Positions 1,605 through 51,617 of a stretch of DNA of 56,495 bases are shown piece after piece. Source of the DNA: Oscillospiraceae bacterium. Lineage in GTDB: Bacteria; Bacillota; Clostridia; Oscillospirales; Oscillospiraceae. The notes under the pieces are model-generated. The model was not told the origin of the DNA. It ran no database searches and saw only the letters and a list, made by a program, of their open reading frames with translations. Numbering within the stretch: the stretch's first letter is position 1; each line of letters opens with the position of its first letter. A program made the translations under genes and the position numbers. The stretch is taken from contig JAFYVL010000079.1 of NCBI GenBank assembly GCA_017549125.1, forward strand, positions 1-56,495, read 5' to 3'.

Positions 1605-1647
1605 ATATCTGTTTTTTCGACTATTTCAAAGTTTTAAAAAACCGCCG

Positions 1648-1738: not shown

Positions 1739-1754
1739 GCGCAACAAAATGACA

Positions 1755-5420: not shown

Positions 5421-5433
5421 ACTGGCTCTCCTT

Positions 5434-6693: not shown

Positions 6694-6722
6694 AGTTAAT
6701 CTCCTATATCACAGTAATCCTA

Positions 6723-6813
6723 TGTAGGGGAGGGGTTCACCCCTCCCACATCCTAAAACATTTGCATTTGTGCGAATCCATGGGTTTTGGGAGGGGTGAA
6801 CCCCTCCCCTACA
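6723..6813. repeat. 91-bp dispersed element inside the pur operon
   Basis: Perfect 26-bp inverted ends at 6723-6748 and 6788-6813 (TGTAGGGGAGGGG...), each an internal hairpin. It fills the gap between the AICAR transformylase gene and purD. The same length and ends occur at 1648-1738. No clear target-site duplication is visible. It has no coding capacity, so if mobile it depends on a transposase elsewhere. Confidence 0.8.
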
Positions 6814-6825
6814 AACTGTTATACC

Positions 6826-8010: not shown

Positions 8011-8021
8011 GATTCCCTCCA

Positions 8022-8735: not shown

Positions 8736-8739
8736 ATTG

Positions 8740-31700: not shown

Positions 31701-33559
31701 TCATTGGTGGGATCTGCAGAAATCAGAATTCTGGCCTGACCCCATGCGCTGGCATCGGTCAAAGACAGCTTACCGCTGACACGGTAGTTGGCTGCACGAG
31801 CCGCAATACCGCCACGGGTCAGATCGTCCACCTTGTGCTGGGCATCGGAATCGGTGGACAGGGTGTACTCCCCATTCTCGCCCTGGGTAAACCAGTTCTC
31901 GGTCATGCCGATGGTCATGCCATTGTCCACAGCCTGCTGACCCACAGCCACAGAATAGTTGGTGGCGGTCAGAACGCTGTTGAAGGAGAAGATACCCACA
32001 GCGCCCTTGGCATCATGGAAGCCCTCCACATTATGCAGAGCCAATTTGCCATTGACAAAGAAATAGTATGCGCTGCCGTCACGAACCAGCTTCAGCTTGA
32101 TGGTATCGCTGCCGCTAAAGGACATGCCGGGTACTTCTGCGGACACAGAACCTGCCCAATCGTCGCCACCGTCGGTGGGCTGATACACAACACCCACATG
32201 GGTTGCCGCCAGCTGGGGATTCATATCCACAAAGAACTTGACCATTTCAGAAGTGCCGTTGACCAGAATACCGAACTTGGGCCAGTTATCATTGTTCAGT
32301 ACCTGGGACACATTGATCTCAGTCTCAAAGCAGAACTTATCGGTAAAGATATCGTTTAAGTAAGTATACTGGGGTGCGCCACCGGTGATGGACACGGAAG
32401 GTTCGCTACCCTGGTCCTTAGACAGATCCACACCGTCGGAGGTGCTATAGATAATGCCATCACCCTCTGCAGAGCCAAAGATTTCTCCCTTATTGCGCTC
32501 TGCTTCCGGCAGCATCGCATTCTTGGCATCCAGATCTGCCTGGGCGGTGGTCACCGCATAATCGGTAACGGTCAGACCGGTGTTGAAGCTGAAGATACCA
32601 GCCTTGGCCTTGCCTTCAAAGCCGCAAACGCTGGACATGACATAACGGCCATCCACAAACAGGTGCAGACGCTTGCCTTCCTTCAGCACACCCAGAGTCA
32701 CAGTTTCTCCATTGCCGGAGAAAGCCATGCCCTCTACGGTCACGGACTTGGCATGATCCCAATCGTCCTGGCCGTTGGTGTTGGTCATGTTACCCACCAC
32801 AGAAGCGTTCATGGCGCGGTTCATATCCACATAGAAATACTCACGGACATTGTCGCCCTCAGCCATCAGACCGAACTTGGGCCAGTTTTCACCAATGGCT
32901 ACGTCATTGGTATGGAATTTTGCTTCAAAATAGAAGTTCTCTTCTGCAAATCCATTGATGTAACCAAAGGAAATGCCGTTGGACGCTACAGTGACCTGAT
33001 CCTTCTCAGACAGGTTCACCTGCGGATTGGTGCTTTCAAAGAAATGACCAAAGATGTTCGTCAAGCCCCAGGATGCCACCTGTGCTTCATAGGTGGTACA
33101 CAGAGCCTTCACAGCTGCCTTCTGGGTCTGGTTATAGCCTGCCCAGGCGGTATTCACAGCCTGCAAAGCCTGCTTCATAGAAGTTGCCTGCCATTCGGTC
33201 TGAATGGTTTCACCGTTCACGACCACGAAAGCATAGGCTTCCAGATTGGCTTCACCGCCATTATTGGCCAGAATGTTCTTGACACGGACGGAGAATGTAC
33301 CATCGGTCAAGGTCTTCTGGATGGTATAGGTTCTTTCTGCACCGCCGTTCACTCGGAAACAGAAACCCATTTCGGTGACGGTGGAGAGGTCTCCCTCCAC
33401 CGTTGCCTTAAAGCCCAGAGCATCCTTGGCAGGATCCAGGCTTACATGGGTAATCTTCAGAGTGGGATCATCATTGCCCTGTTCTGTTGCAAATACGGCA
33501 GGCACGAGGCTTACCAGCAATGCCAGGGTCAGAAGCAGAGCCAATACTCTATTCTTCAT
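28772..33559 (-). CDS. Secreted GH43-type glycosidase with lectin-like domains
   Basis: 1,595-aa exported protein. Layout: signal peptide 1-25; S-x-D-P module about 36-170 (HVSLDPAKDALGFKA); two concanavalin/laminin-G-like domains (about 190-338, 370-540); three copies of a related jelly-roll unit with WGQARILISAD (about 553-715, 738-900, 923-1090); GH43 beta-propeller about 1110-1450; discoidin-like end 1468-1595. Likely catalytic residues are Asp1120 in GADPSVI and Glu1348 in VNEAPFV; the WAPE motif is at 1191-1194. Such enzymes release arabinose or xylose-type units from plant polysaccharides. Last gene of the operon, 17 bp after the giant gene. No LPXTG or SLH anchor. Its first 170 residues are almost identical to those of the giant protein. 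Confidence 0.85.
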   Translation of the reverse strand: MKNRVLALLLTLALLVSLVPAVFATEQGNDDPTLKITHVSLDPAKDALGFKATVEGDLSTVTEMGFCFRVNGGAERTYTIQKTLTDGTFSVRVKNILANNGGEANLEAYAFVVVNGETIQTEWQATSMKQALQAVNTAWAGYNQTQKAAVKALCTTYEAQVASWGLTNIFGHFFESTNPQVNLSEKDQVTVASNGISFGYINGFAEENFYFEAKFHTNDVAIGENWPKFGLMAEGDNVREYFYVDMNRAMNASVVGNMTNTNGQDDWDHAKSVTVEGMAFSGNGETVTLGVLKEGKRLHLFVDGRYVMSSVCGFEGKAKAGIFSFNTGLTVTDYAVTTAQADLDAKNAMLPEAERNKGEIFGSAEGDGIIYSTSDGVDLSKDQGSEPSVSITGGAPQYTYLNDIFTDKFCFETEINVSQVLNNDNWPKFGILVNGTSEMVKFFVDMNPQLAATHVGVVYQPTDGGDDWAGSVSAEVPGMSFSGSDTIKLKLVRDGSAYYFFVNGKLALHNVEGFHDAKGAVGIFSFNSVLTATNYSVAVGQQAVDNGMTIGMTENWFTQGENGEYTLSTDSDAQHKVDDLTRGGIAARAANYRVSGKLSLTDASAWGQARILISADPTNEYFIALEQLPAGNYQIFIMSKANQDNWDAWVKIGETGKNTLNFELVVSESQVTVLLDDMICYETDRVTMAESTVKFTGYNIGTTTVADLDLEIFSDSQSAANYLSGKSYKPQGMQEATLSTNWFAQGEDGEYTLFTDSDAQHKVDDVLANGVIMRSSMYCVKGKLSLTDAADWGQARILISADARNEYFIALEKTNNGIYQIFTMSKADQDGWDNWVKICDTGKNVQDFELIVNGNKVYFLVDGKICYETDRVTMTDSTVKFTGYNIGTTTVEDLQLTTFDNGDAISAYIAQKEHKTEGTPETLLSTNYFTETSEGVYTLTTNSDAQHLVDDVMADGFVMRDDFYAVSGQLTLKDAADWGQARILISADARNEYFVALEKLPSGNYQIFTMSKADQDSWDVWQAVADENTNGKRNSVAFELVVLGGQVNLLLDGKLVYQTSRVPMTESTVKFTGFNNGTTVVEDLVALRFASQAEAENYLLGCNTAKNVSYKNQLDVLGADPSVIAITEGKDAGSYYMYITSDSLGCKGYLAYRSWDLVNWECVSTALHAGGAYYDATAGRTIASYLTTDYWAPEVIYDAQTKLYYMFYNADRYDNQGYFYGDIAVASDPAGPFVPYNKYLHKNLVQIDAENDIWAYEPVFDFTKMDVNDPLYETANNGYMKIIDLSPFVDPVTGQKYVYFCHDLGKAFGYTMSSNYVMKLNDDYTPDYTSVKHLTTAESTLKEGSVNEAPFVLYKSGKYYLLYSVNNYKNVGYSVRVAVSDSPDGTFTKLTDAQGGYLLYGTDKGTGHCSVVSRDGQDYIVYHAHKVKTSDSFARGIAVDTLNWTQNSSGLLVPVVSGPSFGDMPLTAGEYTNVADNATVTNLVSGSVNTLTDGIIAHRTLKYVTEAVFSGEATIRLDFAKTTVYGIGIYDGVDQPCAGVKSVRLILANGDSICYTGVAADQILKTVPAEAVAVEIQMADSAQYAISEVVVLAKN

Positions 33560-33576: not shown

Positions 33577-36500
33577 TTATAATTTGTTGCCGTATACTTC
33601 CATTTCCCAAATGCTTGCCCAAGCACCACCGGTGGTGGATTCCACGGTCACGCGGATATATCTTGCCTGTGCCTGCTGGCTCACGGTCACATCTACCAGA
33701 GCCTGTGCTTCGGGATCGCTGTATACAGACCAGTCGTTGCCATCCACAGAGGTTTCGATCTTAAAGTTCCAATCGGATTTCTGCTCAAAGAAGATATAAA
33801 CAGCTTCCAGATCGTAAACATCCTTCAGATCGATCATGAGCCACTGGGGCATAGCATCGCTGGTGGCACACCAACGGGTATCCGTATCGCTGTCAAAAGC
33901 ATGGCTTGCAGGAGAACCATTGGTGCTTGCGGACATTTCCATAGCGGAAACGTCGATTTTCTGCGCATTTTCGCTGACCTGGGCGCCGGTAATGCCCATG
34001 GATGCAAAGCAATACTTCAGATAAGAGCCTTCGCTCACCAGCTGACCTGCTTTAATATCAGCCTCGGTGATCTTGGCCATGTACATACGGCCGGTATTGA
34101 AGCGGTCATAGTCATAAACCACGTAGAACGTGCCGTTATCCTCGATCACATCGGGATAGCTGACGCCCAGACGGGCATCCAGCAAAAGGGTATAGGGCCA
34201 GGTCTTACCACCATCCTCAGACAGGAAGGCGGTCAGATTGTTTCTGCCGTTAAAGTCCTTGTGGTTGATCATCAGCAGCTTGCCGCTACTGGTCTTACCC
34301 ACATAGATGGCAGAGTTGGGATGGGCGATATTGGATACCTGGGCATTGGTCCAGGTCTTACCGCCGTCATAGGAGAAACTCTCCTTCATATTGCCTTCCA
34401 GCTGGCGCAGCAGCATCCACAAGGAGCCGTCATTGCGCTCAACGATAATGGCATTGTTATAAGTAGAACCGGTAACCTCTGCTCTACCCTTCCAGGTCCA
34501 GGTTGCGCCCTTGTCGGTGGAAGAATAGACATCGGAATAGTTTCTGTCGATCCAGTCAAAAGCGGTAGTCAGCCATTCTTCATTGGCCTGACCTTGGTTC
34601 AGAACGGTGATCTTGCCGTTGCCACGGCCATCAAACAGACGCTGGGGTGCAGACCACTTCAGTTCATCGGTAGGTGCGCCGGGGTTTTCGCAGATGGCAG
34701 CCCAAGTGCCCATTTTGCCGTCAAAGCCACCGGTACCGGTGTGCTGAGACCAGGACACCCACAATCTGCCATCTTCCATAGTCCACAACTGGGGCTTGGT
34801 CACCTGGGCGGCGGTGTCGGGGTGAACAATGGCTACCGCAGGATCTACCCAAGTAGCGCCATTGTCATCGCTATACAGCAGCACAGCCATGTTGCCGGTG
34901 GCAAGCTCCGTTTCACCGCCTGTGAACCATGCGGCCCACAAGCGGTTACCGTTAGGGCCGTCGGTGATGGTCACCACCGGACAGCCCTGCCAGTTACGGG
35001 ATGCAGGGGTATAGGTATACAGAGAATTCTGTATACCTGTTACCTCAGGATTATTATAGATGTTTGCTGCGGTGGTCACAGAGGGCATTTCGTAATAGTC
35101 CTCTGCGGCCAAAGTATCAAAGTAGACCAGGTTGTACTGACCGTAATGGATCACATCACCCACAGCCACTTCCTTCTGGTACAGCTTCTGGGCATAGCCC
35201 AGGCTCTTGCCGGGAAGTCCCTTGTTGTTACGGTAAGAACGGTATGCCACAGGGGTAAAACCGTCTGCAATCAAGGCTTCCTCCAATGCCACATAAGTGG
35301 CATTGGTATTTTTTACGGGAATCTGCACATACACAGTACCGGCTTCGGTGACAGTACCGGTAGCGCCTTCGTCAAAACCGGAATACAGGAAGCTCTTGCC
35401 GTGGAGGGCTTCCAGCTGATCGCCGGAGGCATAGTAGGTTCTGTTGTCAAAGAGACGAACATTCTGCTCGTACTTGCAAGCCTGGGTGGTAGTGCCGTCG
35501 GGAGCGATCTTTGCCAGGTTCTCAGACAGCACCAGATCACCGGAGAATACAGGAATTGCCCAAGAGGGCCAGGAAACCGTTTCCCCTGCTGCTACGGTCT
35601 TCTTGAACAGCAAGAATTCATTGCTTGCAAAGCTGGAGTGGGAAATGGCGGTAAAGGCAGGTACATCCACCTTGGTAAAGCCATCCGCCTCCAAAATCGC
35701 AGCTCTGGTCATAGACACGCCATCTACCTTGGTAGAACCGGTGTTGGTGATCATGTAGACCACACCGCCACGGGTAGCGGTGGCAGAACCTGCACCGTAG
35801 TTGCCTACGATGTAGTTCTTGCCTGCCAACCAGTAGGGCATACCGGAAATGGTATAGGTTCTGTCAGCAAATGCCAAAGTGCCGGCTTCCATGTTACCCA
35901 CGGATGCGCCCTCGGCAGGCTGCAGAATTGCCATGTCGCTGTCTGCGATCTTGTAGCAATCGGCATCCAGATTCAGCTTTTCTTCAGAAGCGATCACCAC
36001 GCTCCACTGACCCAGCTGCAGAGTCTCACCGGGCTCTACATACTTTTCATAAACCCAGATGTAGGAGGAATTGCCGGAGAAATCGCAGAACTTCCAGCCA
36101 GCCATATCCAGCTTGGTGTAGTTCATTTCGTCCAGGGTCTCTGCCTGGGAGTTATCGGTCTTGTAGGCATTGGTCAGCACATAGATATAGCCGGGCTTCT
36201 GCACGGTAATATCCACGGTCTCACCTGCCACACCATAGGAAGCCTTCACAAAGGTCTTACCCAGGAATGCTTCGGGCATGCTGGTGAACACATAATCTCT
36301 GGTGGTCCAGATGATCTTGCCCAGAGCCACAGTATCCAGCTTCTGACCATTGTTGGTCTTGATCATAGGCTCTTCCACCTTCAGGGTGGGAACGGTGTTA
36401 TAGAAGGCCTTCAGATCAGAGATATAGTCATAGGTGGTCAGATTGGATTCATGATACTCTGCATAGCAGAACACCATGTGGGTACCGATCAAAGTCGATG

Positions 36501-39500
36501 CGGTTCTGTAGGGCTTGCTGGCATTGCCGGAGGCATTGTAGTAGAACTTAATATTCAGCTCGTTCTGCAGAGTCTGGTTGGTCTGCATGACCACATCCTG
36601 CATGCTGTTGGCACTACTGCCCAGCACCATCTTTGCCACATCTGCGCCACGGGCTTCCATTTCCTTGGCCAGGGCAACACCCTCCGCCTCGGTCAGAGAA
36701 ACACCGATATGGGCAGACATGAGAACCTCAGCACCCATGTCATGGAACTCCTGGATCAGCGCCTTCTGCTGAGCGATCACATCGGGGTTCATGGACACTT
36801 CATTGGGATTTGCGCTTTCAAACACAGTACCAGCCAGGGTTGCACGGGAATCGGCATCGAAGGTATTCATAGGAATATCCACAATGGCAAAACCGGCACG
36901 AACGGCCTCCTTCATCAGCTCCACACGGTATTCCCGGTTGCTCTCATCGCCGTAGGCAATGGCCATCACAGGATAGTCGGTGCAATCTGCGATTTTCTTG
37001 AAGGACTCGTAGTTGCGATACTGGGAACTCAGAGAGGTCAAATGCACATTGAAAGCGGTTGCGCCGTCAGCCTCCATCTTTGCGATGGCGGCAATGACCT
37101 GATCGGGAGTGGAACGCTTCACACTACCGTTGAGCAGAGGTGCTTTCTGGGTGGTGTACTTGGTGGTATCTACCTGGGTATCATCCACCAGCGCATTGCC
37201 CTCGGCATCGGTAATGGTCACGGGAACAGCGACGATCATATCGTCCACGATCACGGATGCCGCATAAGCATTGGCGGTGAAGGTGGAAGGTACGGTCACA
37301 TACTGGCTGGCATCCAGCTGCGCCACATTGCCGTACTTATCAGTACCCAGCACGACCATACCGGTGGGATCAAAGCTTTCACCCAACTGGTAGGTGGTCT
37401 TGGTGGGCATCTGAGAAATGGCAATGGAAACAGGAGGCTCAGCAGGCAGCTTCTCGTTAGAACCGAAGATAGGAATGGACCAATAGCTCTTTCTGGTTCT
37501 CTCATAGTCGCCAGCCTGGACATCCTTCACATACAGGCCGTAGCCATTTTTGTTGTAGGAGGATGCAGACAGGATATTGCCATACTCCGCAGCCAGATCT
37601 ACCAGGAAGGTATAGCCTTCCTCGATAAAGTACTGTTTGCGGGTCTCAACGGTGCTGGAGATCAGGAATACCTTACCGCCCTTGGTAACAGTTGCCTGGA
37701 CAGGGTCGTTCAGATTATCCTGAATCAGATTCTGACCAATCAAGCCCTGGGGCAGATTCTGCAATTTCGCAGGATTGGAGGCATCTGCACCTCTGTCGGT
37801 GAAGGGATACACACCGTTATCCACAGCCATCAGCACACCGCCGCTGGCCTCAGTAGGCTCCATAATGGCCAACTGGTGATCGGCAAATACATAACCGCCG
37901 ATGTTATGGACAGTGGGATCCACAGGCAGCTCAGAAACGGCAACCATGTGCCAGTTGCTGTTGCCGGGAATGGTAATGGTCTCGCCGGCCTTTACGAATC
38001 TCTGGTAGATCCAATGATCCACCAGCTTGGTATACTTTGCCAGATAGAATGCGGGGGTTTCAATACGGTCGTACAGATCAATATCCAGCTCATCGGCGAT
38101 GGAATTGCCGTGACCTCTGTAAGGAGTGATCACATAGATGTAGCCGTCCTTCTTTGCGGTGAAGGAAATATCGGACTTCATCTTGTTCTGAATAAAGCTT
38201 ACGCCTGTGAATGCCTCAGGCATTTCGTAGAAGGTGTAGGTCTTGTCAGACCAGATCTTGCCGCCCAATTCCATGGTGGCAAGCTGACCTTCTGTGTGCA
38301 GGGTCAGCAGAGAATCTGCGCCCTCGGCACGGGTCACAAAGTATTCCTTCAGTTCCATACCGGTGTTGAAGCCAAAGACAGCAATATTGGCTTCACCGGT
38401 GATGGCGCTATCCAGATACAGAGCGAACTTGCCGTTCACATACAGGTACAGCTCACCGTCCACCTTCTTCAGACCCAGGGTGACATATTCGCCCTTGCCG
38501 GAGAAGTTCATGCCCTCTACGGTTTCGGTCTTAACATCGTTCCAGTTATCCACCCATGTCTCTTCGCTCATGGTGGAGGTCATAACACCCACCTTGGAAG
38601 CGGTCTTATTGGTGGTCATGTCCACATAAAAGGACTCACGGGTAGCGTCATCCTGTACCAGAATGCCGAACTTGGGATAACCGTCGTTGTTGTAGATCTC
38701 GTTTACATGTACCTTGGTTTCAAAATAGAAATCCTTAACCTCAAAATTCTTGACCCACAGGAACTCGCTCTTGCCGGAATTCACATTCACGGTGCCGACA
38801 TGGGCGCCCAGATCGCTGGACAGATCCAACTCAGCGGTGGTAAAGAAATTGAACTGAGTTCTCACAGCGCTGATCTCAGCTTCTGCTGCGTCGCCTGTCA
38901 GAACGCTGTAATTGCTTGCTGTGAATTCGGTGTTGAAGGAGAACATACCCACAGCACCGGTTTCTGCCTTGAAGCCTGCGTTGTCACGCAGTACCAAAAC
39001 ATCGTTTACATAGAAGTAGTAAGCCTGACCGTCACGAATCAGCTTCAGCTTGATGGTATCGCTGCCGGTAAAGGACATACCGGGCACTTCCACAGCCTTA
39101 GCATTTGCCCAATCATCGCCGCTGCCGGTGGGCTGGTATACAACACCAACCTGGGTGGCGGTCATATCGGTCTTCATGTCCACATAGAACTTGACCATTT
39201 CAGATGCGCCGTTCACCAGCAGACCGAACTTGGGCCATGCATCGTTATTGAGCACCTGGGACACATTGACCTGAGTCTCGAATACAAATTCATCTGTGAT
39301 CAGATCATTGATAAAGGTGTACTGGGGAGATGCGCCAAAGAAACGGATGGAGGGATTCTCGCCCTGATCGTTGGAGAAGTCCACACCGTTGGAGGTCTGG
39401 TAGTCACCGGCATTACCGAAGAAGCCCGTAGGCTCTTGCTGGAAGATCAGCTGGTACAGATAGTTAGACAGCACCTTGTAGCCCTCTTCGCTCAGATGGA

Positions 39501-42500
39501 TATTGTCGCTGACATAATAGGAAGCAACAGGATTCTTGCCATCTGCGGTGGTCATCAGATCAAACAGGTCAATGCCGGTCACATAGTCCAGGCTTGCAAC
39601 CAGTTCCTTGGACAGCTTGATAGCATCTTCGATCTTCTTGTTGGTGTATGCGCCGTTTGCATACACAGAGGGGCTGGGATTGATGTAAATATAGTAAATT
39701 TCTGCATTGGGGTTATCGGTATGGATCTTCTTCAACAGAGTTTCCAGATTTGCGGCAAACTCCTGGCCATTGTCGCCCCAAACATTGACGTCATTGTAGC
39801 CAATGTTGATGATGATGCGCTCTGCACCGAAGGGCTTTACCAGCTGATCGTAAGCCAGCAGCCAATCCCGGATGGCAGAACCGCCGATACCCACATTGTA
39901 GCCGTTTTCATACTTGGTCAGACCGGTCTGGCTTTCCCAAGTGCTCCAGAAATCCATGTAGGAGTCACCGAAAATCAGCGTGCCGCCCTTGCCGGTGCAA
40001 CCGTGCTCGGTGATGTACTCATTGTACAGGCTCTCTATGCGGCTCTGGAAGCGGCTGACATAATCGGCCTCTTCCTTGGTTGCCAGGTAAGCCTGGGCAT
40101 CTGCGCTGGAGGCAAACACCTGGGCATCCAGGTCAGAAACCAGAGCAGTTGCCACATTGGAAGCACCAAAGCCGGGGGTACTTGCGCTCATGACTGCACG
40201 GCTGCTGACATAGCAGATCTTGTCGTCGATCAGCAGAGTGATCTGACCGCCGTCTACCACCATTTCCAGATCCAGCTCGTTGCGGCTGCCGTTGACCTCA
40301 TGATGGCCGATCAGACGCCAATCGTTCCATGCGCCCTCGTTCAGACGGGACATGGTGAAGATCTGGTAGGCATTCTCCCCTACCTTCTCCAGGGCGATCA
40401 CATAGCCGTTCTGGTCGTCAGCAGTTGCCAGAATACGAGCCTGTCCCCAGGTATTGGCATTGGTCAGAGACAGGGTTGCCTTCACACGGTAGCTGGCGGC
40501 ACGAATCACTTCTGCATCCACAGCCACGGCGTCCACCATAGTATCGGTGTAGCTATTGGTAGTCAGGCTGTACTTACCAGCATCAATTTCAATAAAGTAA
40601 TCCGTAGTCAAGCTGACGCCTTCCGTATCTTCCACAGGCTGATCCTTGACCTCTACAAACAGTTCGGGGATTGCATTGTAGAATTCACGCAGATCCTTTG
40701 CGTAATCATACACATAGGCATTGATCTCATGATAGGGTGCGCAGCAGAACACAACCTGTGTACCCATCAGACCGGCAGCGGTACGGAAAGGACGGCTGGC
40801 TGCACCGGCGCAGTTATAGAAGAAGGGAACATTCAGCTCCTGCTGCAGGGTCATATTGGTCTGCAGCGTATCTTCCAGATTTGCGGTGCTTGCCAAAACG
40901 ATCTTGGCAAAATCAGCGCCACGGTTTTCCATTTCCTTTGCCAGGGCAACACCCTGGGTTTCATTCAGAGCAACACCCACATGGGCAGACATGAGAATCT
41001 CCAGATCGGGATTCATCTGACGCAGTTCTGCCATAAAGGCCTGCTGCTGAGCGATCACATCTGCATCCATGGACACTTCCTTAGGTGCAGCTGCTGCGAA
41101 GATGGTCTTACTATAGCTGGTCTTGCAGGCATCATAGGAAACGCTGAAGGTATCCATGGGGATATCCACTGCATCGAAGCCAGCCTGTACGGCCATGCGC
41201 CACAGATCCAGGCGCATTTCCAGATTGCTGTAATCACCGTAGGCCAGCGCCATCACAGGATACTCGGTGCAATCGGCGATCCGCTTCAGATTTTCCACAG
41301 TACGCTCAGACTCTGCCAAAGTGGTCAAATACACAATGAAGCCGGTTGCTCCGTCTGCCTCTTCCTTACGGATGGTGGCTACGGCCTCGGCCACAGTGCC
41401 CATAGAAATACTACCGGTCACAATGGGAGCCTTCTGTGTGGTAAAGCCGGACATATCTGCCGGTGTATAGTCGGTCAGATCCTTGCCCTCTGCATCGGTA
41501 ACGATCACGGGAATGGCGCAGATCTTGTCATTGACGATCACGGAAACTGCAGGTACGTCTGCAGACAGCACGCTGGGAGCTACCAGATACTCGTCGCTTT
41601 CCAGCACGATCTTGTTGCCCTTAGCGTCGATGCCGCTGACCACCAAACCGGTTGCATCAAAGCTTTCGCCCAGCTTGTAGGTGGTCTTGGTGGGCATTTG
41701 GGTAATTTCAATATCGGTGATACCCGCTACAGGCTCATGGGGCAGCTGCTTATCGCAGTAGAACAGCGGTACACCCCAACGACCCCAAGTAACGGTCTCG
41801 CCTTCGGTCACATCCTTTTCGTACAGCGCAAAGCCCATGGCAGCAAAGTTGCCGCCACCCAGACCTGCACCGCCCCAAGGCTCAAAGTCCAGATCCATTA
41901 CATGGCTAAAGCCTACGTCCAGATACTTCTGTCCGTTGGCTGCATTTCTGCCGATCAGATACAGCTTACCGGCCTTGGTAACGGTAGCCGTCGCACCATT
42001 CAGAGGAGCGCGGAGATAGCTCATACCAGCCATCCAATAAGGAATGGTATGGTAGTAATAGGTTGCTTCGTTGGAGAAGATCTGCTGCTTCAGCTCCACA
42101 GGCAGAGCATCATAGCTGTCAGATTCGATCACTGCCAACTGATCCTTGGCAACGGTCACGCCATTGCCGGTCAGATCCAGCTTGGTCTCAGAGCCAATGA
42201 GAACACCCCACCAAGCACCCAGCTGAATCCGCTCACCGGCGGACACCTTCAGTTCATACACCCAGGTATGGATCTTGCTATTGTAATCGGCAAAGGTCCA
42301 CTGGGGAATTTCCAGACGCTTAAAGCCATACTTGTCCAGATCCTTGGCAAAATGGCTGTCATTCCGGGGAGCGGTCACCACATACAGATAACCATTGCGG
42401 CCCACGGTCACATCCACACCGCTGTTGATGCTGCCGTAGATGTAGGACTGACCCAACAGCTGCTGGGGCATGCTGATGAAGGTGTAGGGCTTATCTTCAT

Positions 42501-44094
42501 CTGTCCAGATCTTTTCACCGATGGCTACGGTCTTCAAGGTGTTGCCATCATTGGGAATCAGCAGATCGTTCAGGTTGATCCGCTGGGCAGATACCACCAC
42601 CACAGACCAGCTGGGGTCAATGATCAAGGTCTCACCGGGATTTACCTTCCGCTCAAATACCAGAGTATCGATGGGATTGTTGTAGTTTGCAAAGCACCAA
42701 TCCGATGCAATGTTTACCTGGGTATAACCGGAGCCTTCTGCCAGAATATTATCCGGGAAGTTGCTATGGCTGGTCAAAGGGGTCATCACATACAGATAGC
42801 CACTTTGCACCACGGTCATGTCGATTCTGGTGGCGATCTTTCCAAACACGTAGGATTGACCAACCAGGGCATCCGGCACTTCCACAAAGGTGTAGCCTCT
42901 GCCGTTCCATACCTTGCCGCCCAGTTCCAGGGTTTCGATGGTATAGCTGTCACTTTCCGCCAGAATCTGATTTCTCTGCTGGTTAAAGGCCTCTGCATCG
43001 GCCTTTGCCTGGGTCAGCGCATTGGCATATTCGCTATTGTTGGCCTCTACCGTATAATCGGTCAAGGTCAGCTCTGTGCCGAAGCTAAAGAAACCGGCTA
43101 CGCCGTTTTCATCGGTCAAGTCGTTGCCAGCCAGCATCATGGTGCCATTTACATAGAAATAGTAATTGACGCCGTCACGAACCAGCTTCAAGTCCACGGT
43201 CTCGGTCTTCAGATCCAAGGGAGAATACAGAGAATTTACTGCTGCATAAGCCCAATCATCATTCTTGCCGGTGTTCTGGTGGACAGCGCCCACCTGGGAC
43301 ACCTGCTGAGCCGGTGTCATATCCAGGTAGAACTTTACCATTTCCGTCTCACCGTTAACCAGCATACCGAACTTGGGATAACCCTCATTTTCGATCACGC
43401 TGTTCACCTGAACAGTCGCCTCAAAGCTAAAGTTCTGGGTCTGCAGATCCTTGATGTAGGTATACAGGGGGGTTGCCTTGTGGGCATCCATCACCAGGCT
43501 GGGGTTCTGGCCACAATCGGTGGACAGATCGATCACGCTGCTGGTGTTGAACTTACCTGCATTGCCGAAGAAGCTGCCGAAAATGTTCTCCAAGCTCCAC
43601 AGCTTGGTCTGCTCCTCGTACTGATAGCACAGGGTTTTCACAGCTTCTTTTTGGGTGTTGCTGTAGCCGGCGGTGTACCAGGCATTGTTCACTGCCTGCA
43701 AAGCCTGCTTCATGGAAGTGGTCTGCCATTCGGTCTGAATGGTTTCACCATTCACGACCACGAAAGCATAGGCTTCCAGATTGGCTTCACCGCCACCGGC
43801 AGCCAGGATGTTCTTGACACGAATGGAGAAAGTACCATCGGTCAAGGTCTTCTGGATGGTATAGGTTCTTTCTGCGCCGCCGTTCACTCGGAAACAGAAA
43901 CCCATTTCGGTGACGGTGGAGAGGTCTCCCTCCACCGTTGCCTTAAAGCCCAGAGCATCCTTGGAAGGATCCAGGCTTACATGGGTAATCTTCAGAGTGG
44001 TATCGGCATTGCCCTGTTCCGTTGCAAATGCGGCAGGCACGAGGCTTACCAGCATTGCCAGGGTCAGAAGGAGAGCTAAAACTCTTGTCTTCAT
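33577..44094 (-). CDS. Giant secreted multidomain protein: AroD-like barrels, SGNH esterase, sialidase-like propeller
   Basis: 3,505 aa. Order: signal peptide 1-25; S-x-D-P module 35-171; LamG-like 176-352; repeat modules K1-K3 (386-785); Ig-like 793-867; AroD-like TIM barrel 884-1145; jelly-roll 1160-1335; SGNH hydrolase 1344-1552 (Ser1378 in FGDSYMD, Asp1530 and His1533 in DNIH); LamG-like 1557-1733 and 1750-1923; K4-K5 (1936-2217); Ig-like 2222-2300; second AroD-like barrel 2315-2575; K6-K8 (2585-2995); sialidase-like propeller 3020-3360 with four Asp boxes (SDDNGATW, STDKGATW, SYDGGKTW, SEDGGKTW); discoidin/CBM32-like 3375-3505. The barrels keep a His (1038, 2462) and Lys (1064, 2488) at the dehydroquinase positions. 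Probably acts outside the cell on a complex, esterified glycan. No wall anchor is seen. Preceded by a good GGGAGGTAACG site. Confidence 0.82.
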   Translation of the reverse strand: MKTRVLALLLTLAMLVSLVPAAFATEQGNADTTLKITHVSLDPSKDALGFKATVEGDLSTVTEMGFCFRVNGGAERTYTIQKTLTDGTFSIRVKNILAAGGGEANLEAYAFVVVNGETIQTEWQTTSMKQALQAVNNAWYTAGYSNTQKEAVKTLCYQYEEQTKLWSLENIFGSFFGNAGKFNTSSVIDLSTDCGQNPSLVMDAHKATPLYTYIKDLQTQNFSFEATVQVNSVIENEGYPKFGMLVNGETEMVKFYLDMTPAQQVSQVGAVHQNTGKNDDWAYAAVNSLYSPLDLKTETVDLKLVRDGVNYYFYVNGTMMLAGNDLTDENGVAGFFSFGTELTLTDYTVEANNSEYANALTQAKADAEAFNQQRNQILAESDSYTIETLELGGKVWNGRGYTFVEVPDALVGQSYVFGKIATRIDMTVVQSGYLYVMTPLTSHSNFPDNILAEGSGYTQVNIASDWCFANYNNPIDTLVFERKVNPGETLIIDPSWSVVVVSAQRINLNDLLIPNDGNTLKTVAIGEKIWTDEDKPYTFISMPQQLLGQSYIYGSINSGVDVTVGRNGYLYVVTAPRNDSHFAKDLDKYGFKRLEIPQWTFADYNSKIHTWVYELKVSAGERIQLGAWWGVLIGSETKLDLTGNGVTVAKDQLAVIESDSYDALPVELKQQIFSNEATYYYHTIPYWMAGMSYLRAPLNGATATVTKAGKLYLIGRNAANGQKYLDVGFSHVMDLDFEPWGGAGLGGGNFAAMGFALYEKDVTEGETVTWGRWGVPLFYCDKQLPHEPVAGITDIEITQMPTKTTYKLGESFDATGLVVSGIDAKGNKIVLESDEYLVAPSVLSADVPAVSVIVNDKICAIPVIVTDAEGKDLTDYTPADMSGFTTQKAPIVTGSISMGTVAEAVATIRKEEADGATGFIVYLTTLAESERTVENLKRIADCTEYPVMALAYGDYSNLEMRLDLWRMAVQAGFDAVDIPMDTFSVSYDACKTSYSKTIFAAAAPKEVSMDADVIAQQQAFMAELRQMNPDLEILMSAHVGVALNETQGVALAKEMENRGADFAKIVLASTANLEDTLQTNMTLQQELNVPFFYNCAGAASRPFRTAAGLMGTQVVFCCAPYHEINAYVYDYAKDLREFYNAIPELFVEVKDQPVEDTEGVSLTTDYFIEIDAGKYSLTTNSYTDTMVDAVAVDAEVIRAASYRVKATLSLTNANTWGQARILATADDQNGYVIALEKVGENAYQIFTMSRLNEGAWNDWRLIGHHEVNGSRNELDLEMVVDGGQITLLIDDKICYVSSRAVMSASTPGFGASNVATALVSDLDAQVFASSADAQAYLATKEEADYVSRFQSRIESLYNEYITEHGCTGKGGTLIFGDSYMDFWSTWESQTGLTKYENGYNVGIGGSAIRDWLLAYDQLVKPFGAERIIINIGYNDVNVWGDNGQEFAANLETLLKKIHTDNPNAEIYYIYINPSPSVYANGAYTNKKIEDAIKLSKELVASLDYVTGIDLFDLMTTADGKNPVASYYVSDNIHLSEEGYKVLSNYLYQLIFQQEPTGFFGNAGDYQTSNGVDFSNDQGENPSIRFFGASPQYTFINDLITDEFVFETQVNVSQVLNNDAWPKFGLLVNGASEMVKFYVDMKTDMTATQVGVVYQPTGSGDDWANAKAVEVPGMSFTGSDTIKLKLIRDGQAYYFYVNDVLVLRDNAGFKAETGAVGMFSFNTEFTASNYSVLTGDAAEAEISAVRTQFNFFTTAELDLSSDLGAHVGTVNVNSGKSEFLWVKNFEVKDFYFETKVHVNEIYNNDGYPKFGILVQDDATRESFYVDMTTNKTASKVGVMTSTMSEETWVDNWNDVKTETVEGMNFSGKGEYVTLGLKKVDGELYLYVNGKFALYLDSAITGEANIAVFGFNTGMELKEYFVTRAEGADSLLTLHTEGQLATMELGGKIWSDKTYTFYEMPEAFTGVSFIQNKMKSDISFTAKKDGYIYVITPYRGHGNSIADELDIDLYDRIETPAFYLAKYTKLVDHWIYQRFVKAGETITIPGNSNWHMVAVSELPVDPTVHNIGGYVFADHQLAIMEPTEASGGVLMAVDNGVYPFTDRGADASNPAKLQNLPQGLIGQNLIQDNLNDPVQATVTKGGKVFLISSTVETRKQYFIEEGYTFLVDLAAEYGNILSASSYNKNGYGLYVKDVQAGDYERTRKSYWSIPIFGSNEKLPAEPPVSIAISQMPTKTTYQLGESFDPTGMVVLGTDKYGNVAQLDASQYVTVPSTFTANAYAASVIVDDMIVAVPVTITDAEGNALVDDTQVDTTKYTTQKAPLLNGSVKRSTPDQVIAAIAKMEADGATAFNVHLTSLSSQYRNYESFKKIADCTDYPVMAIAYGDESNREYRVELMKEAVRAGFAIVDIPMNTFDADSRATLAGTVFESANPNEVSMNPDVIAQQKALIQEFHDMGAEVLMSAHIGVSLTEAEGVALAKEMEARGADVAKMVLGSSANSMQDVVMQTNQTLQNELNIKFYYNASGNASKPYRTASTLIGTHMVFCYAEYHESNLTTYDYISDLKAFYNTVPTLKVEEPMIKTNNGQKLDTVALGKIIWTTRDYVFTSMPEAFLGKTFVKASYGVAGETVDITVQKPGYIYVLTNAYKTDNSQAETLDEMNYTKLDMAGWKFCDFSGNSSYIWVYEKYVEPGETLQLGQWSVVIASEEKLNLDADCYKIADSDMAILQPAEGASVGNMEAGTLAFADRTYTISGMPYWLAGKNYIVGNYGAGSATATRGGVVYMITNTGSTKVDGVSMTRAAILEADGFTKVDVPAFTAISHSSFASNEFLLFKKTVAAGETVSWPSWAIPVFSGDLVLSENLAKIAPDGTTTQACKYEQNVRLFDNRTYYASGDQLEALHGKSFLYSGFDEGATGTVTEAGTVYVQIPVKNTNATYVALEEALIADGFTPVAYRSYRNNKGLPGKSLGYAQKLYQKEVAVGDVIHYGQYNLVYFDTLAAEDYYEMPSVTTAANIYNNPEVTGIQNSLYTYTPASRNWQGCPVVTITDGPNGNRLWAAWFTGGETELATGNMAVLLYSDDNGATWVDPAVAIVHPDTAAQVTKPQLWTMEDGRLWVSWSQHTGTGGFDGKMGTWAAICENPGAPTDELKWSAPQRLFDGRGNGKITVLNQGQANEEWLTTAFDWIDRNYSDVYSSTDKGATWTWKGRAEVTGSTYNNAIIVERNDGSLWMLLRQLEGNMKESFSYDGGKTWTNAQVSNIAHPNSAIYVGKTSSGKLLMINHKDFNGRNNLTAFLSEDGGKTWPYTLLLDARLGVSYPDVIEDNGTFYVVYDYDRFNTGRMYMAKITEADIKAGQLVSEGSYLKYCFASMGITGAQVSENAQKIDVSAMEMSASTNGSPASHAFDSDTDTRWCATSDAMPQWLMIDLKDVYDLEAVYIFFEQKSDWNFKIETSVDGNDWSVYSDPEAQALVDVTVSQQAQARYIRVTVESTTGGAWASIWEMEVYGNKL

Positions 44095-44112: not shown

Positions 44113-47100
44113 TTAGTTTTTCTCGGACAAATATGCGTTGGCTGCCTGCTGATCTGCAAAAATCTCCACAGACAGATTTTCCACGATGGTAGTCGCCGTG
44201 TTGTATCCGGTGAATTTCACGGTACTTTCCGTCATAGGTACACGGGTCTTGGTGTAAACGATCTGATTGTCGATCAGGAAGGTCAGCTTGTTGCCAATGA
44301 CCAGCACCTCAAAGTCTATGCTGTTTCGGTAGGCATTCACATCCTGGTGCATAATCAGTTCCCATGCATCCCAGCCGTTTTGGTTGGCCTTGGACATGGT
44401 AAAGATCTGATACTTACCGGTGTTGGTCTTTTCCAAAGCAATGAAATACTCATTCTTGGCATCACTGCAGACCAGGATTCTGGCCTGTCCCCAATCGCCG
44501 GCGTTTGTAAGCGTCAGTTTACCCTTCACGCTGTAATACTTGGCTCGCAGAACCTGTCCGCCCTGGGTCAGGTCGTCCACCTTGTGTTCAGCATTGGAAT
44601 TGGTGGTCAGCGTAAACTTTCCGTTGCCTTGATCGGCAAACCAGTTGCAGGTCAGACTCAGCTTGGTCAGCAGAGCCGCTGCATCCTTGGCTTCTGCGAT
44701 CTGGCCGTCTGCATCCGCACCGGTAAGCACATGGTTCTTACTTGCGGTCAGTACCGTGTTGAAGGAGAAGATACCCACAGCACCCTGGGCATCCTTAAAG
44801 CCATTTTCGTTGTACATGACCAGCGTATCATTGACATACATATAATATGCGCTGCCATCACGAATCAGCTTCAACTTGACGGTATTGCTACCGGCAAAGG
44901 ACATACCCGGTACTTCGTAGGATTTAGAGCCTGCCCAATCGTCACCGCCGCCGGTGGGCTGATACACAACGCCAATCTTGGTTGCGGTCATCTGGGGAGT
45001 CATATCCACGAAGAACTTGACCATTTCGCTGCTGCCGTTGACCAGCAGACCAAACTTAGGCCATGCATCGTTGTTCAGAACGCTTTGCACATTCACTTCG
45101 GTCTCGAAGCAGTACTGATCACCATAAACACCGTGTACATAGGCATACTGGGGTGCGCCGCCAAAGATCTGGACGCTGGGATTTCCGCCCTGGTCTGCAG
45201 ACAGATCCACACCGTTGCTGGTGGTATATCCGCCGGCTGCACCGAAGGTCTCGCCACGGAAAATCAGATCATACAGCTGTTCGGAGAGCACCTTGTAGCC
45301 CTCTTCACTCAGATGGATATTGTCGCTGACATAATAGGAAGCAACAGGATTCTTACCATCTTCCGTAGTCATCCGATCAAACAGATCCACACCGGTCACA
45401 TAATCAAGACCGGCAACCAGCTGCTTGGACAGCTTGATAGCCTCTTCGATCTTCTGGTTGGTGTATGCACCGTTTGCATACACAGAGGGGCTGGGATTGA
45501 TGAAAATGTAGTAAATTTCCGTCTCGGGGAAGTCTGCATGGATCTTTTCGAACAGGGTCTTCAGATTTGCCGCAAACTCCTGGCCATTGTCGCCCCAAAC
45601 ATTGACATCATTGTAGCCAATGTTGATGATCATGCGATCTGCGCCAAAGGGCTTCACCAGCTGATCGTAAGCCAGCAGCCAATCCCGGATAGCAGATCCG
45701 CCAATGCCCACATTGTAACCGTTCACATACTTGGCAAGGCCGGTCTGGCTTTCCCAAGCACCCCAGAAATCCATGTAGGAGTCACCCAGAATCAGCGTGC
45801 CACCCTTACCCGTGCAGCCATGCTCGGTGATGTACTCATTGTACAGGCTATCCATGCGGCTCTGGAAGCGGCTGATATAGTCAGCCTGGCGCTTGGTTGC
45901 CACATAGGCCTTCGTCTCTGCGCCATTGGCGAAGGTTTGCAAGGACAGAGCCTCCACCTTGGTCGTACCCACATTATAGCCGGTGAATTTCACCGTACTC
46001 TGGGTCATGGGCACACGGTCAGAGGTGTAGCAAATGGCATTATCCACCAGGAAATACAAGGTATCTTGATCTACGATCACCTCGAAATCCAGGGAATTGT
46101 TGTTGCCGTTGACCTCTCCATGGGCAATGAGCCGCCAATCATTCCAATTGTCCTCGTTGGCCTTGGACATGGTAAAGATCTGGTAGTTTTCCTCACCGAT
46201 TTTTTCCAAGGCGATAAAGTACTCGTTCTTAGGATCGGAAGAAATGAGGATTCTGGCCTGTCCCCACATATCCGCATTGGACAGGGACAGCTTACCCTTT
46301 AAGCTATAGTAGCTCTCACGCATGACCTTACCGGCGGAAACCACATCATCCACCAGATGCTGAGCATCGGAATCCGTTGCCAGCAGGTATGCGCCATTCA
46401 GAGTCTTGGTAAAGTAATTCTGGGTCAGGGATGCGCCACTAAATACCACAGCATCTGCCTTGGCCTTGCTCAGCAGACCGTCGTACATCGTTCCGGTCTT
46501 GACCAGCTTGTAGTTAGTGACCTTCAAGGATGTACCAAAGGAGAAAATACCCATGGCACTATTCACAGCAGACAGGTCGTTGCTGGTGGCAACCAGCACA
46601 CCATCCACATAGAAATAGTAAGTCGCACCGTTTCTGAGCAGTCCCAGGGTGACCTTCTTGGCATTCAGATCCAGCTTCTGGGTCAAACTCCAGGTGGACT
46701 GACCTGCCCAATCATCGCCCTTGCCATTTTTCTGGTGGACCGCGCCTACGCCGCCAACCAGCTTATCGGTGGTCATATCCAAGTAGATCTTGACCATTTC
46801 CTTACCGTCATTGGTCATCAGACCGAACTTGGGATACTTTTCATCACCACGGATGCCGGTAACCTGTGCGGTCAGTTCCAAATAGAACTGCTTGGCGGTG
46901 GTATCCTTCACATAGGCATACAAGGGTGTACCCTTCTGGGCATCCATCACCAGGTAGGGATTGGTACCGCTGTCGGTCTTCATATTCAGCACATCGCTGG
47001 AGTGACAATCCCGGGCACTGCCGAAGAATGTACCCTGGGGATATACCTTGGGTGCTTCTGCCGGCGCTTTCACATCCGGCAAGCCAAAGCGTGCCACGAT

Positions 47101-50100
47101 ATACAGATCCTCACCGGGCATCACCAGTTTGGGATCACAGGGCTTGCCATTGGCGGTCAGGCTCACCAGCTCATAGCCCTTATCGGGGGTCAAGGTCAAG
47201 GTGACGGTCTGACCGGCCTGGGCTTCGGTGGTGCTCAGCGTCACCAAGCCGTTGGCGGTGGGCAGCACCTGGATCTTATATGTGCCGGTCTGCTGGGAGG
47301 GTGTGGTAGTTTCGGCGGCTACATTCTTCAGAATGAATCGCTGTGCCATATCCGTGGGGAAATGACCCTTGAAATACCACCAGGGATCTCCCCGGAATTT
47401 CATTTTAGGATCGGTGATCTGAGAGGGATTGCTGTAATCCTTGTCACAGGTCTTGAAAGCAAAGCCCACAGCCGCATCGCCGCTGCCGATCACTTCACGG
47501 GGTACGAAGGCCTCCATAACGGTGGTGAACGTACCGGTCACCAGATCCTCGGTGGTGACCATGGATTTTACCATGTAGCCGCTGTCACCAAACGCGGTGG
47601 CGGCAAAATGGGTATCGTTGATCCAGAATTCTGCATTGGTGTTGTAATACCACACACCACGCTCGTCCTGACCCTCGTTCCACATATAAACCTTGGGCTG
47701 GTAGCCGTGCTTGACCTCATAGGCCAGGTAAATACCCGCAGGTGTCTGGTAACCGTAGACGGTCATGGCATTGCCGCTGACGCTGTCGGTTTCCGTAGCC
47801 AGCTGGGTCTTGGCTGCCCAATCTCCCAGATCGCCGTCGATGGCGATCTCCGGCTGGTAATTTGCCATGTAATACTGCACCAGCTGCTTATCGGTCTGAT
47901 AAGCATTGACCGTAATGTCTGCGGTGGTGTTAAAGAAGAACAAACCGGGAATGGAGCCGTCCTGCAGACCCTTCACATCCACATCGGACATGACCATTCT
48001 GCCGTTGACCAGCATGACGATCTGGTTTTCGTAGCGGATCAGCTCCAGGTTGATGGTGCCGTCTCCGTCCAGACCCACACAAGAACGTGTGCCGAAGGTC
48101 TTACTGGAGCCGTTCTCCCAGCCCCAGGCTGTACCGATAAATTCGGTGGTATGGGCGGTGACACGGCCGATGCCGTTGACGTTGCCGCCGGCATAGTCCA
48201 CATAGTAAGCCAGCAAGCTATCCAGGGACTTGGACACCACACCGAATTTGGGGTAGCGGTCGCCGTTGAGGATATCGCCTACCTTGACATCCACATTCAC
48301 ATAGTAGGCATCGCTCACTTCGTCATCGAAGTAATAGAACTGGTTAGAGCCACCGGTCTGGGTGATTTGGTTGTCCTGTACCCGGAAACCGTCGGTCATC
48401 ACCGTCTGACCCTGGGCATCAATGCGATACCAGGAAGTGGGATCCTGGAAGGAAGAACCCACCATCAAGGTCCAGGTGGTTCTGCCGGATGCGTCAAAGT
48501 CCTTTCTGGTATTGAAAGAAGGTGCGCAAATCAAGCTTTCCGGCTTTTCGGTCATATTCAATGCGCTGTAGGGCACATAGGCCTCCACATCGTAGCCGGT
48601 ACACTCAGAGCTGTTCAGCTGGCCATAGATATGCACCTTGCTGACGCTTTCGATGTAGGTGCGCATATACTGGTAATTCTCGGTGGAATTCACACCGATC
48701 CAGCCTTCAATAGAGCCATCCAGACCGTAGCGCAGCTGCACCACGTTGGCGTTGAGCTTATCGCTGCCGCCCTTGCCCAGTTGGATCTCCACAGAGGAGT
48801 TCTGGAAGATGGCATGCTCGGGATTCACAAATACGTTGGTATCATTGCTATGGAAGCCAAAGAAGATACCATCTTCTGCCATCTTGGAGTACATGGTCAT
48901 GGTCACACCGTTGGTATCGGCAAAGGAGATCTTGTCGCCCTTGTATTCCTCGGGGTTCACCACACCGTCAAATTCCACCGTATCGTCTGCCGGGGCTTCC
49001 ATATTCCAGCTGGTGTCGCTTTGAATATCGGGAAGTTCCTGACGATCCTGGCGTCTTGCCATCACTGCGATTTCAGACACGGCATACTTTTCACCGGCAT
49101 CGGGCATAGAGATCTCAATGGAGGTGACCTTGACAGGATCAAAGGTAATAGCCACGCTGCCGCCGGGAATCACATAGCCTTCCTCGGTATAGTAGCTGTC
49201 CCAATCAAAATCCATATCCTTGAACAGCGCGCTGCCGCCGTCTGCCAGGTGCAGGCGAATGGATTCAATATTACTAAAGAGGTAATCGTATTCGTAGCTG
49301 TTGTACACAGCAATACCGGAAATGGTCTTGGCCTGTTTAAATTCCAGTTCGATGGTGGTATCGTCGTCGAACACCACATCCTCCACCAGACTATTGTCAC
49401 GGTGAGAGATCAGACCGTCGGTCAAAGCGCTGGCCTTGCCCTTGGCAATGCTATCTGCGCTAACCTTAGCCTCATCCGCCACATTTTCATACAAATAGGT
49501 GGTCAGAGGCATCAAAGCCGCAGAAGGACCGTTGGCCACAGGCACTAACAGACCGTCGCTGTTTTCTACCCAGTTCAGTTCGTCCATGGCAATACCACGC
49601 TTGGAGTTGCCGTTCACACGATCCAGGTGGGCATGGTAAACAATATAGTCCTGGCCGTCACGATTCACCACAGAGCAGTGACCTGTGCCGGATGCCCAGG
49701 TCCAATGGCTGTCTGCGTAGAGCAGGAAGCCGCCCTCTTTCTGGGTCAGCTTGCGGAAAGGACCTTCCGGGCTGTCGCCCACCGCCACACGGACACAGTA
49801 GGTCTTTTGGTAGTAGGCATTGGCAGAGAACAGCAGATAATACTTGCCGGACTGCTCATTATAAATCACATAGGGTGCTTCGTTGGTGCTACCCTCATTG
49901 AGAGTGGTATTCTCCATGCCGTCCAGTTCCAGGCAGTTGGGAGAGGTCAATGCCTGGATGTTGGTGTAATCCGGCATGTAATCATCCTGCAATGCCATCA
50001 CATAGATGTTAGACTGGGAAATGGCCTGCTGTTTGCTGAGGTCATGGCAGAAATACACATACTTCTTGCCACTCACAGGGTCAATGAAGGGATTCATATC

Positions 50101-50760: not shown

Positions 50761-51617
50761 TAGCCTTTCTCGCCTCCTGCTGTAATACCTTCAATGAAAT
50801 ATTTCTGTACAAATACGTAAATCATAACTGTGGGGATGATCGCCACCACATTGGCCGCCAGAATGCTGGGCCAATCGCCGGAATAGCGGTCAGAGAACAC
50901 GGAAACAGCGATCTGCAGGGTCTGATAATCAGACTTTAAGTAGATCAGCGGTCCAAAGTAGTCGTTATAACCTGCCACGAAGCCCAAAATACCCTGGGAC
51001 AGCAATGCAGGCTTGACCAAAGGCAACACGATCTTCACGAAACAGCCAAAGGGACCCATGCCGTCCAGACGGCTGGCTTCGATGACGGAATCGGGAATGG
51101 AGAAGATGGCCTGGCGCATAAAGAACACACAGGCAGCTGCGCCAAACATACCGGGAATCATCAGCGGTACATAAGGTGCGGTCATGGTAATGCCCAGATA
51201 GTCCCAAATGATATAGGAAGGCACTAAGGTCACAATGCCGGGAACCATCATGGTTGCGATCAAAAGACCGAACATCACATTTTTGCCACGGAAACGCATT
51301 TTGGCAAAGGCATAGGCAGCCAGGGTGGACACCAACAGACCCAGTACCGTGGGCGGAATGATGATCCACATGGTGTTGACGAAGCCTTCCAAAATGGAGG
51401 TGGAGGATGCTACCTTCTCAAAGGCATTGACATAGCCCTTCAGGGTCATGCCCAGCTTCGGCCACCAGGTAAAGCTGCCGATGGTCTCCTCTTTATGCTT
51501 CAAAGAGGAAATCAGCATAATGGCAAAAGGAACAAGCACAAACAGCGCAAAGAGAATGAGACCCGAGTAAATTATAATTTTCCGCAGGATCTCTTTTCTT
51601 TTTCTTGCTTTAATCAT
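50760..51617 (-). CDS. Carbohydrate ABC transporter permease, MalG type
   Basis: 285-aa inner-membrane protein with six predicted membrane segments, starting with IIIYSGLILFALFVLVPFAIML. The EAA loop that contacts the ATPase reads EASRLDGMGPFGCFVKIVLP near 178-197. It pairs with the MalF-type permease upstream (8-bp overlap) and the solute-binding lipoprotein. No ATPase gene lies here, so a shared MsmK-like ATPase is presumed. Its stop codon overlaps the start of the membrane-tethered GH43 protein. Confidence 0.93.
   Translation of the reverse strand: MIKARKRKEILRKIIIYSGLILFALFVLVPFAIMLISSLKHKEETIGSFTWWPKLGMTLKGYVNAFEKVASSTSILEGFVNTMWIIIPPTVLGLLVSTLAAYAFAKMRFRGKNVMFGLLIATMMVPGIVTLVPSYIIWDYLGITMTAPYVPLMIPGMFGAAACVFFMRQAIFSIPDSVIEASRLDGMGPFGCFVKIVLPLVKPALLSQGILGFVAGYNDYFGPLIYLKSDYQTLQIAVSVFSDRYSGDWPSILAANVVAIIPTVMIYVFVQKYFIEGITAGGEKG

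Follow-up and report, generated by a model that had tools for sequence, protein, structure and literature searches.

The 56,495-nucleotide stretch of DNA analyzed here (the window), contig JAFYVL010000079.1 (C76) of the Oscillospiraceae bacterium assembly GCA_017549125.1 (2.29-Mb genome; completeness of 71.5%), encodes on its reverse strand an exported multidomain protein of 3,505 residues (positions 33577 to 44094) which harbors two domains resembling type I 3-dehydroquinate dehydratase (DHQase), the AroD enzyme of the shikimate pathway. Copy 1 spans residues 884 to 1145 (positions 40660 to 41445) and copy 2 spans residues 2312 to 2571 (positions 36382 to 37161); here and below, window features lie on the reverse strand unless otherwise indicated. 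Both copies are proposed, on the basis of sequence comparison, to represent an exported, type I DHQase-like Schiff-base lyase whose substrate would be a sugar with a carbonyl group, perhaps a reducing end, a reading to which we assign a probability of roughly 0.6. The two copies show that a scaffold of the shikimate pathway has been taken up into exported proteins that degrade glycans while its covalent catalytic residues stayed intact; if the Schiff-base elimination is real, it would represent an added mechanism of glycan breakdown. The open reading frame (ORF) displays a ribosome-binding site and a signal peptide (residues 1 to 25; positions 44020 to 44094), and its product carries several Pfam domains; export of this protein, as of all members described below, was read by eye from the N-terminal sequence.

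The DHQase homology of the 3,505-residue protein was confirmed by several sequence comparisons. Copy 1, searched as an excised domain, scored 25.2 bits and copy 2, with which it shares 55% identity, scored 30.3 bits against the Pfam family DHquinase_I (PF01487; cut-off of 22.2), while the entire protein matched the same family in two stretches with an E value of 5.4e-9. A profile built from 46 family sequences retrieved 20 PDB entries at an E value of ≤0.1, the best being 2gpt (1.8e-14); 18 of these represent 3-dehydroquinate dehydratase or 3-dehydroquinate (DHQ) dehydratase/shikimate dehydrogenase, the others being the pentafunctional AROM protein and the aldolase MJ0400 (0.0017). Copy 1 alone produced weak and mixed phmmer matches in PDB, among them an arabinose-binding protein (0.076) and the DHQase 2yr1 (0.31), and the best NCBIfam match of copy 2 was the aldolase-type synthase TIGR01949 (24.5 bits; cut-off of 299). 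Against TIGR01093 (aroD), copy 2 scored 19.1 bits relative to an equivalog cut-off of 139.3, and copy 1 gave no match at an E value of ≤1. Along with MJ0400 and TIGR01949, the other non-DHQase matches (B12-binding and UxaC in Pfam) were likewise weak, and no match to GDPD, the unrelated TIM barrel which had been named as a conceivable better fit, was obtained in Pfam, NCBIfam, or PDB sequence and profile searches of the two copies and the family profile.

Alignment to AroD, whose numbering is used for residue names throughout, places H1038 (codon at positions 40981 to 40983) and K1064 (40903 to 40905) of copy 1 at the catalytic His143 and the Schiff-base Lys170, respectively, and R1104 (40783 to 40785) at Arg213; the corresponding codons of copy 2 are H2462 (36709 to 36711), K2488 (36631 to 36633), and R2530 (36505 to 36507). 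We take E46, R48, D50, and R82 to be the substrate residues of AroD, R213, S232, and Q236 to be its carboxylate-side residues, and E86 to be a member of its catalytic triad. In copy 1, E46 is replaced by I920, R48 by Y922, D50 by T924, R82 by G953, S232 by N1125, and Q236 by Y1129, while copy 2 carries N, H, T, and G at E46, R48, D50, and R82, respectively. The S232-to-N and Q236-to-Y replacements are common to the four giant-protein copies (both window copies and those of the orthologs L080 and L081, described below), and E46, R48, D50, and R82 are replaced in all seven exported domains identified. The original prediction, which had placed an exported AroD-like domain at residues 884 to 1145 with His1038 and Lys1064 as the retained catalytic pair and with the Glu and Arg of the EWRVD strand and the Arg of the TFR strand lost, is upheld on each of these points.

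Conservation of the catalytic residues extends well beyond the window. Lys, His, and Arg213 are kept in each of 134 aligned rows (124 distinct cores), which were chosen by profile rather than by motif and comprise the 7 exported domains, 45 members of an intracellular group (group A), 40 members of the same bacterial family and order, 12 further sequences, and 30 canonical enzymes. All ten residues counted are kept in the 30 canonical rows, and Q236 is kept in 96 of the 97 rows that are neither canonical nor exported. Judged from these alignments, the catalytic machinery is preserved and the pocket is rebuilt, differently in each group. The window domain is like AroD (PF01487; EC 4.2.1.10) in its sequence family, its Schiff-base Lys, its His and the Ser preceding it, Arg213, and a strand-4 Asp, but differs in being exported, in the replacement or absence of E46, R48, D50, R82, E86, S232, and Q236, in having, between strands 4 and 5, a segment for which AroD has no counterpart, and in its score far under the aroD equivalog cut-off. 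In the passages of the literature cited here, Lys170 of type I DHQase is described as forming the Schiff base, and a hypothesis whereby His143 fulfills two catalytic roles is reported (PMC4114755).

The window domain is no lone oddity and, as far as the profiles and alignments indicate, is an exported branch of a wider DHQase-like superfamily with recurring operons; among the titles and abstract openings of the top-ranked openly licensed papers, no description was found of an exported DHQase domain, of a divergent DHQase family, or of a Schiff-base glycoside eliminase. Matches were present in 3 of 300 genomes of the same family and in 37 of 394 genomes of the same order (the source genome included in both cases), the order-level matches outside the source genome residing in open frames of no more than 369 residues. 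Across the class, a PF01487 search covering 391 genomes returned at least 85 matches at an E value of ≤1e-5; the 85 matches listed comprise 48 canonical sequences (145 to 276 bits), 36 divergent sequences (40 to 65 bits), and one from the window, which is the only one among those listed to lie in an open frame of more than 500 residues. A wider contig search with a seven-row alignment and two patterns identified 48 relatives among 156 candidate stretches, an earlier contig search with a two-copy alignment having yielded 0 relatives in 106 stretches, and viral contigs yielded 0 in 33 stretches. All 48 relatives derive from genomes titled as metagenome assembled; a herbivore host is named for 28 of them, and 4 belong to the Lentisphaerota or Verrucomicrobiota.

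Of these relatives, three (L080, L081, and L119) are predicted to be exported, the remaining 45 being short ORFs in which no signal peptide was discerned by eye, and most superfamily members are single-domain proteins of approximately 250 to 280 residues. L080 (2,771 residues) and L081 (2,635 residues) represent exported orthologs whose DHQase-like domain is 85% identical to copy 1 and is joined to GDSL and GH43 domains, and L119 is an exported lipoprotein of 406 residues which shares 26 to 28% identity with copy 1. The genome encoding L119 specifies a second exported member, the 795-residue lipoprotein L165, and among 297 genomes surrounding it, 8 possessed matches, one of which is the lipoprotein L171. 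The survey for the same domain in other secreted proteins thus brought the exported set to seven domains in six proteins from five genomes (the window protein, two orthologs, and three lipoproteins). Two of the DHQase-like lipoprotein genes are immediately preceded by genes for large exported proteins (L181, positions 4983 to 9071, and L183, positions 1448 to 4771); Pfam detected GLUG/InlB-type repeats in the former, and similar repeats were discerned in the latter by eye.

The nearest relatives of the window domain are the intracellular proteins of group A, which carry the same Lys, His, and Arg. Groups A and B differ from the exported members in that they are single-domain proteins lacking a discernible signal peptide on visual inspection, many of which are encoded in oxidoreductase operons, and in mostly keeping Q236, which is Tyr in the giant-protein copies. 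Both are large families (L082 to L127 for group A; L041 to L079, mostly group B) found in recurring gene sets which specify SDR, Gfo/Idh/MocA, PIG3-family reductase, amidohydrolase, and AraC regulator proteins. The Pfam label of those group A and B proteins tested is type I 3-dehydroquinase, and Pfam-based annotation would apply this name to DHQase-like proteins in general. In a phylogenetic tree, 76 DHQase-like rows were separated from 25 canonical rows by a branch with support of 100/100, bootstrap values being not fully settled; the rows were partly chosen by motif (25 of the 30 canonical loci through EWRVD-like and KIAMP-like motifs, and 26 of the 40 order and family members, assigned to group B through a motif surrounding the His, with the remaining 14 omitted). 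Group A formed one side of a branch (99/89), and group B was not a clean clade. Five exported rows grouped at 96/78 adjoining group A; a quick FastTree run to which L165 and L171 were added placed the lipoproteins with group A (0.815), and one or two export events are therefore both possible.

Comparison of the window protein with L080 and L081 revealed that identity is highest in the DHQase-like domain among the eight for which it was calculated (85% to each), the values being 54 to 80% for six other domains (GDSL, 59%) and 23 to 54% for the N-terminal region; between L080 and L081, the domain is 92% identical, which is again the highest value. Its ratio of nonsynonymous to synonymous substitution rates (dN/dS) was 0.06 to 0.11, values which are rough given a dS near 1. 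As the domain is the best conserved between orthologs, a dead relic appears unlikely, and this conservation, coupled with the kept Lys, His, and Arg, favors catalysis without proving it.

In AroD, the Lys forms an imine at C3, the His takes the C2 proton, and the C1 oxygen leaves. By analogy, this geometry would accommodate any carbonyl sugar that bears a leaving group at the beta position: the Lys would form an imine with a substrate-borne carbonyl, the His would abstract the proton alpha to it, and an oxygen substituent at the beta carbon would depart, as in 3-dehydroquinate dehydration. As no nicotinamide adenine dinucleotide (NAD) is expected outside the cell to make a ketone, the carbonyl should pre-exist; the likeliest candidates are the aldehyde of a glycan reducing end in its open-chain form and a natural keto-sugar freed by the partner glycosidases and esterase. 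A Schiff-base route would differ from that of the uronate-based polysaccharide lyases.

The gene context of the relatives is consistent with an elimination of this kind. Among the 45 group A loci, SDR (25 loci), Gfo/Idh/MocA (23), PIG3-family quinone oxidoreductase (23), threonine-dehydrogenase-like enzyme (22), amidohydrolase (19), epimerase (16), and EamA transporter (15) genes recur, with neighbor clusters named from one representative each, EamA assigned by eye, and some contigs ending early. By analogy, the intracellular relatives probably catalyze this elimination as well, with the oxidoreductases encoded in their operons supplying the ketones, and an enone product could be a suitable substrate for the PIG3-family reductase. 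Such gene sets are reminiscent of the levoglucosan oxidation-elimination pathway, in which a sugar dehydrogenase is paired with a beta-eliminating enzyme; LgdB1, a 3-keto-levoglucosan beta-eliminase encoded beside a sugar dehydrogenase, is annotated as a sugar phosphate isomerase/epimerase, has a small sugar as its substrate and dehydrogenases as its partners, and is presented in the passages cited with no mention of a Schiff base (PMC7676230). In locus L084, the group A gene is followed by one for a GDSL protein, whose cluster also includes ORFs located downstream in L085 and, at a distance of five ORFs, in L086. Among the exported members, the window protein, L080, and L081 each carry a GDSL domain within the DHQase-bearing chain itself. 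The end of the gene for the L171 lipoprotein is overlapped by one for a SASA esterase (34.8 bits; cut-off of 24.8), the product of which contains the beta-sandwich module of the window protein (independent E value of 1.5e-18; search of five sequences). Four of the six exported proteins therefore have both an esterase and the shared module, either within the chain or encoded by the adjacent gene. A more elaborate proposal is that the domain is an extracellular imine-forming glycan lyase in which K1064 holds a chain-end aldehyde or natural ketone and beta-eliminates the neighboring sugar. It would then constitute the exported arm of a large superfamily, present in bacteria of the herbivore gut and elsewhere, in which the intracellular arms use ketones generated by SDR or Gfo/Idh/MocA enzymes as substrates for elimination; taken as a whole, this proposal is quite speculative.

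A number of observations weigh against the Schiff-base lyase reading. Direct comparison of the four giant-protein copies with canonical enzymes by hhalign was only partial (77%; exported columns 75 to 237), and the orthologs L080 and L081 remained below the DHquinase_I cut-off of 22.2 bits (19.3 and 16.8 bits, respectively). The end-to-end likeness to AroD which the original prediction claimed therefore does not hold in the direct alignment and stands instead through the intracellular relatives: the four copies matched group A over 236 columns (100%; E value of 8e-42), and groups A and B aligned to canonical AroD across 228 columns (97.6% and 99.2%, respectively). The E86 column is a gap, reflecting a deleted loop, in all seven exported domains and is E in all 30 canonical sequences. 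Other domains also displayed low dN/dS values (0.03 to 0.22 by YN00, where computed), and, following an internal block duplication in the 3,505-residue protein, the Ig-like Big_3 domain retained almost as much identity (53%) as the DHQase-like domain (55%; Y modules, 31 to 32%), for which reasons conservation alone is no proof of catalysis. No esterase neighbor was seen for L119 or L165 on the stretches covered (the contig of L119 ending beside the gene), L165 gave no match to the module hidden Markov model (HMM), and no extracellular ketone-forming partner was seen. No further type I DHQase domain was detected in the source genome at an E value of ≤0.001, a lack of intracellular copies which is weak evidence, as this genome is 71.5% complete.

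The same observations bear on the possibility that the domain is a pseudoenzyme, that is, a DHQase-like barrel turned noncatalytic glycan-binding or spacer domain. Its position among putative binding modules, the loss of most DHQ-contacting residues, E86, and Q236 in the window copies, and the comparable retention of Big_3 after duplication would agree with such a role, as would the presence of two copies in one chain, which is common for binding modules. We nevertheless regard this as unlikely, albeit worth serious consideration, given that none of the seven exported domains has lost the Lys, the His, or the Arg, despite L119 sharing so little identity with copy 1, and that none of the other domains compared is as well conserved between the orthologs. 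A class I aldolase, which would use the same imine chemistry for retro-aldol cleavage rather than beta-elimination, for example, of a 2-keto-3-deoxy sugar acid freed by the sialidase-like BNR_2 domain of the protein, is improbable. The Arg kept at the carboxylate position, the TIGR01949 match of copy 2 (far under its cut-off), and MJ0400 as the one PDB match lacking a DHQase are in line with it, and some sialidases do release keto-deoxy acids, but the orthologs L080 and L081 gave no BNR_2 match.

A genuine role in DHQ dehydration appears more remote still. A housekeeping AroD function was rejected on account of the type II AroQ encoded in the source genome and the altered substrate residues; with AroQ present, the DHQase-like domain is not needed as a shikimate enzyme. 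A true exported 3-dehydroquinate dehydratase serving quinate or shikimate catabolism would have a precedent in QuiB, the periplasmic dehydroquinate dehydratase of Acinetobacter, whose type is not stated in the passages cited and which calls for a caveat to the earlier wording that type I DHQase is cytosolic (PMC4213383). QuiB resembles the window domain in placing DHQ-dehydratase activity outside the cytosol, but it acts on 3-dehydroquinate, and no glycan-degrading fusion is described for it in the same passages (PMC4213383). While the esterase could release quinate from esters, the four giant-protein copies carry other residues at E46, R48, D50, R82, S232, and Q236, all six of which are kept in each of the 30 canonical enzymes, both window copies fail to approach the TIGR01093 cut-off, and no quinate dehydrogenase family was found among the 18 Pfam-scanned ORFs of the window, which leaves this alternative with a very slim chance.

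Returning to the Schiff-base lyase reading, the domains surrounding the two copies and the neighboring genes provide the glycan-degrading setting which had been anticipated. A Big_3 Ig-like domain with linker (residues 801 to 883; positions 41446 to 41694; PF07523 at residues 801 to 839) adjoins copy 1 on its N-terminal side, and a second Big_3-like domain precedes copy 2 (about residues 2229 to 2311; positions 37162 to 37410), its extent being deduced from the duplicated block; PF07523 matched the protein in two stretches, of which the best was located. Three beta-sandwich modules, which appear LamG-like by eye, were delineated with an in-house HMM (residues 173 to 355, 1556 to 1745, and 1749 to 1934; positions 43030 to 43578, 38860 to 39429, and 38293 to 38850, respectively); this module had no Pfam match and no PDB match at an E value of ≤1. 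Further in-house HMMs defined a second module type (residues 1151 to 1345; positions 40060 to 40644), which lacks a Pfam match and is also present in both neighboring exported proteins, and three modules of approximately 130 residues, termed Y (residues 388 to 796; positions 41707 to 42933), of which the protein contains eight in total, five being beyond this region; the Y module had no Pfam match, and its best PDB match had an E value of 0.63. The GDSL esterase domain (PF13472/PF00657) occupies residues 1362 to 1545 (positions 39460 to 40011), and an F5/8 type C domain (PF00754) occupies residues 3389 to 3498 (positions 33601 to 33930). The BNR_2 domain (PF13088; residues 3051 to 3324; positions 34123 to 34944), whose best PDB matches are sialidases, is sialidase-like in sequence, with no obvious RIP arginine motif by eye.

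The gene for the 3,505-residue protein is flanked by those encoding a 2,215-residue protein with GH43 and GDSL domains (positions 44113 to 50760) and a 1,595-residue protein with a GH43 domain (positions 28772 to 33559), both of which contain the shared modules as judged by Pfam and the module HMM. These are accompanied by two ABC permease genes (positions 50760 to 52515; PF00528), a gene for an ABC extracellular solute-binding protein (positions 52716 to 54377; PF13416/PF01547), and one for a stand-alone GH43 enzyme (positions 54397 to 55293; PF04616), and an AraC regulator gene is divergent to this reverse-strand set. Judged by its predicted products, the gene set of the window looks like a glycan-utilization locus. 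An antisense ORF of 3,392 residues (positions 33901 to 44079, forward strand) lies opposite the gene for the 3,505-residue protein and is likely spurious, as it shares its codon register with the gene on the opposite strand.

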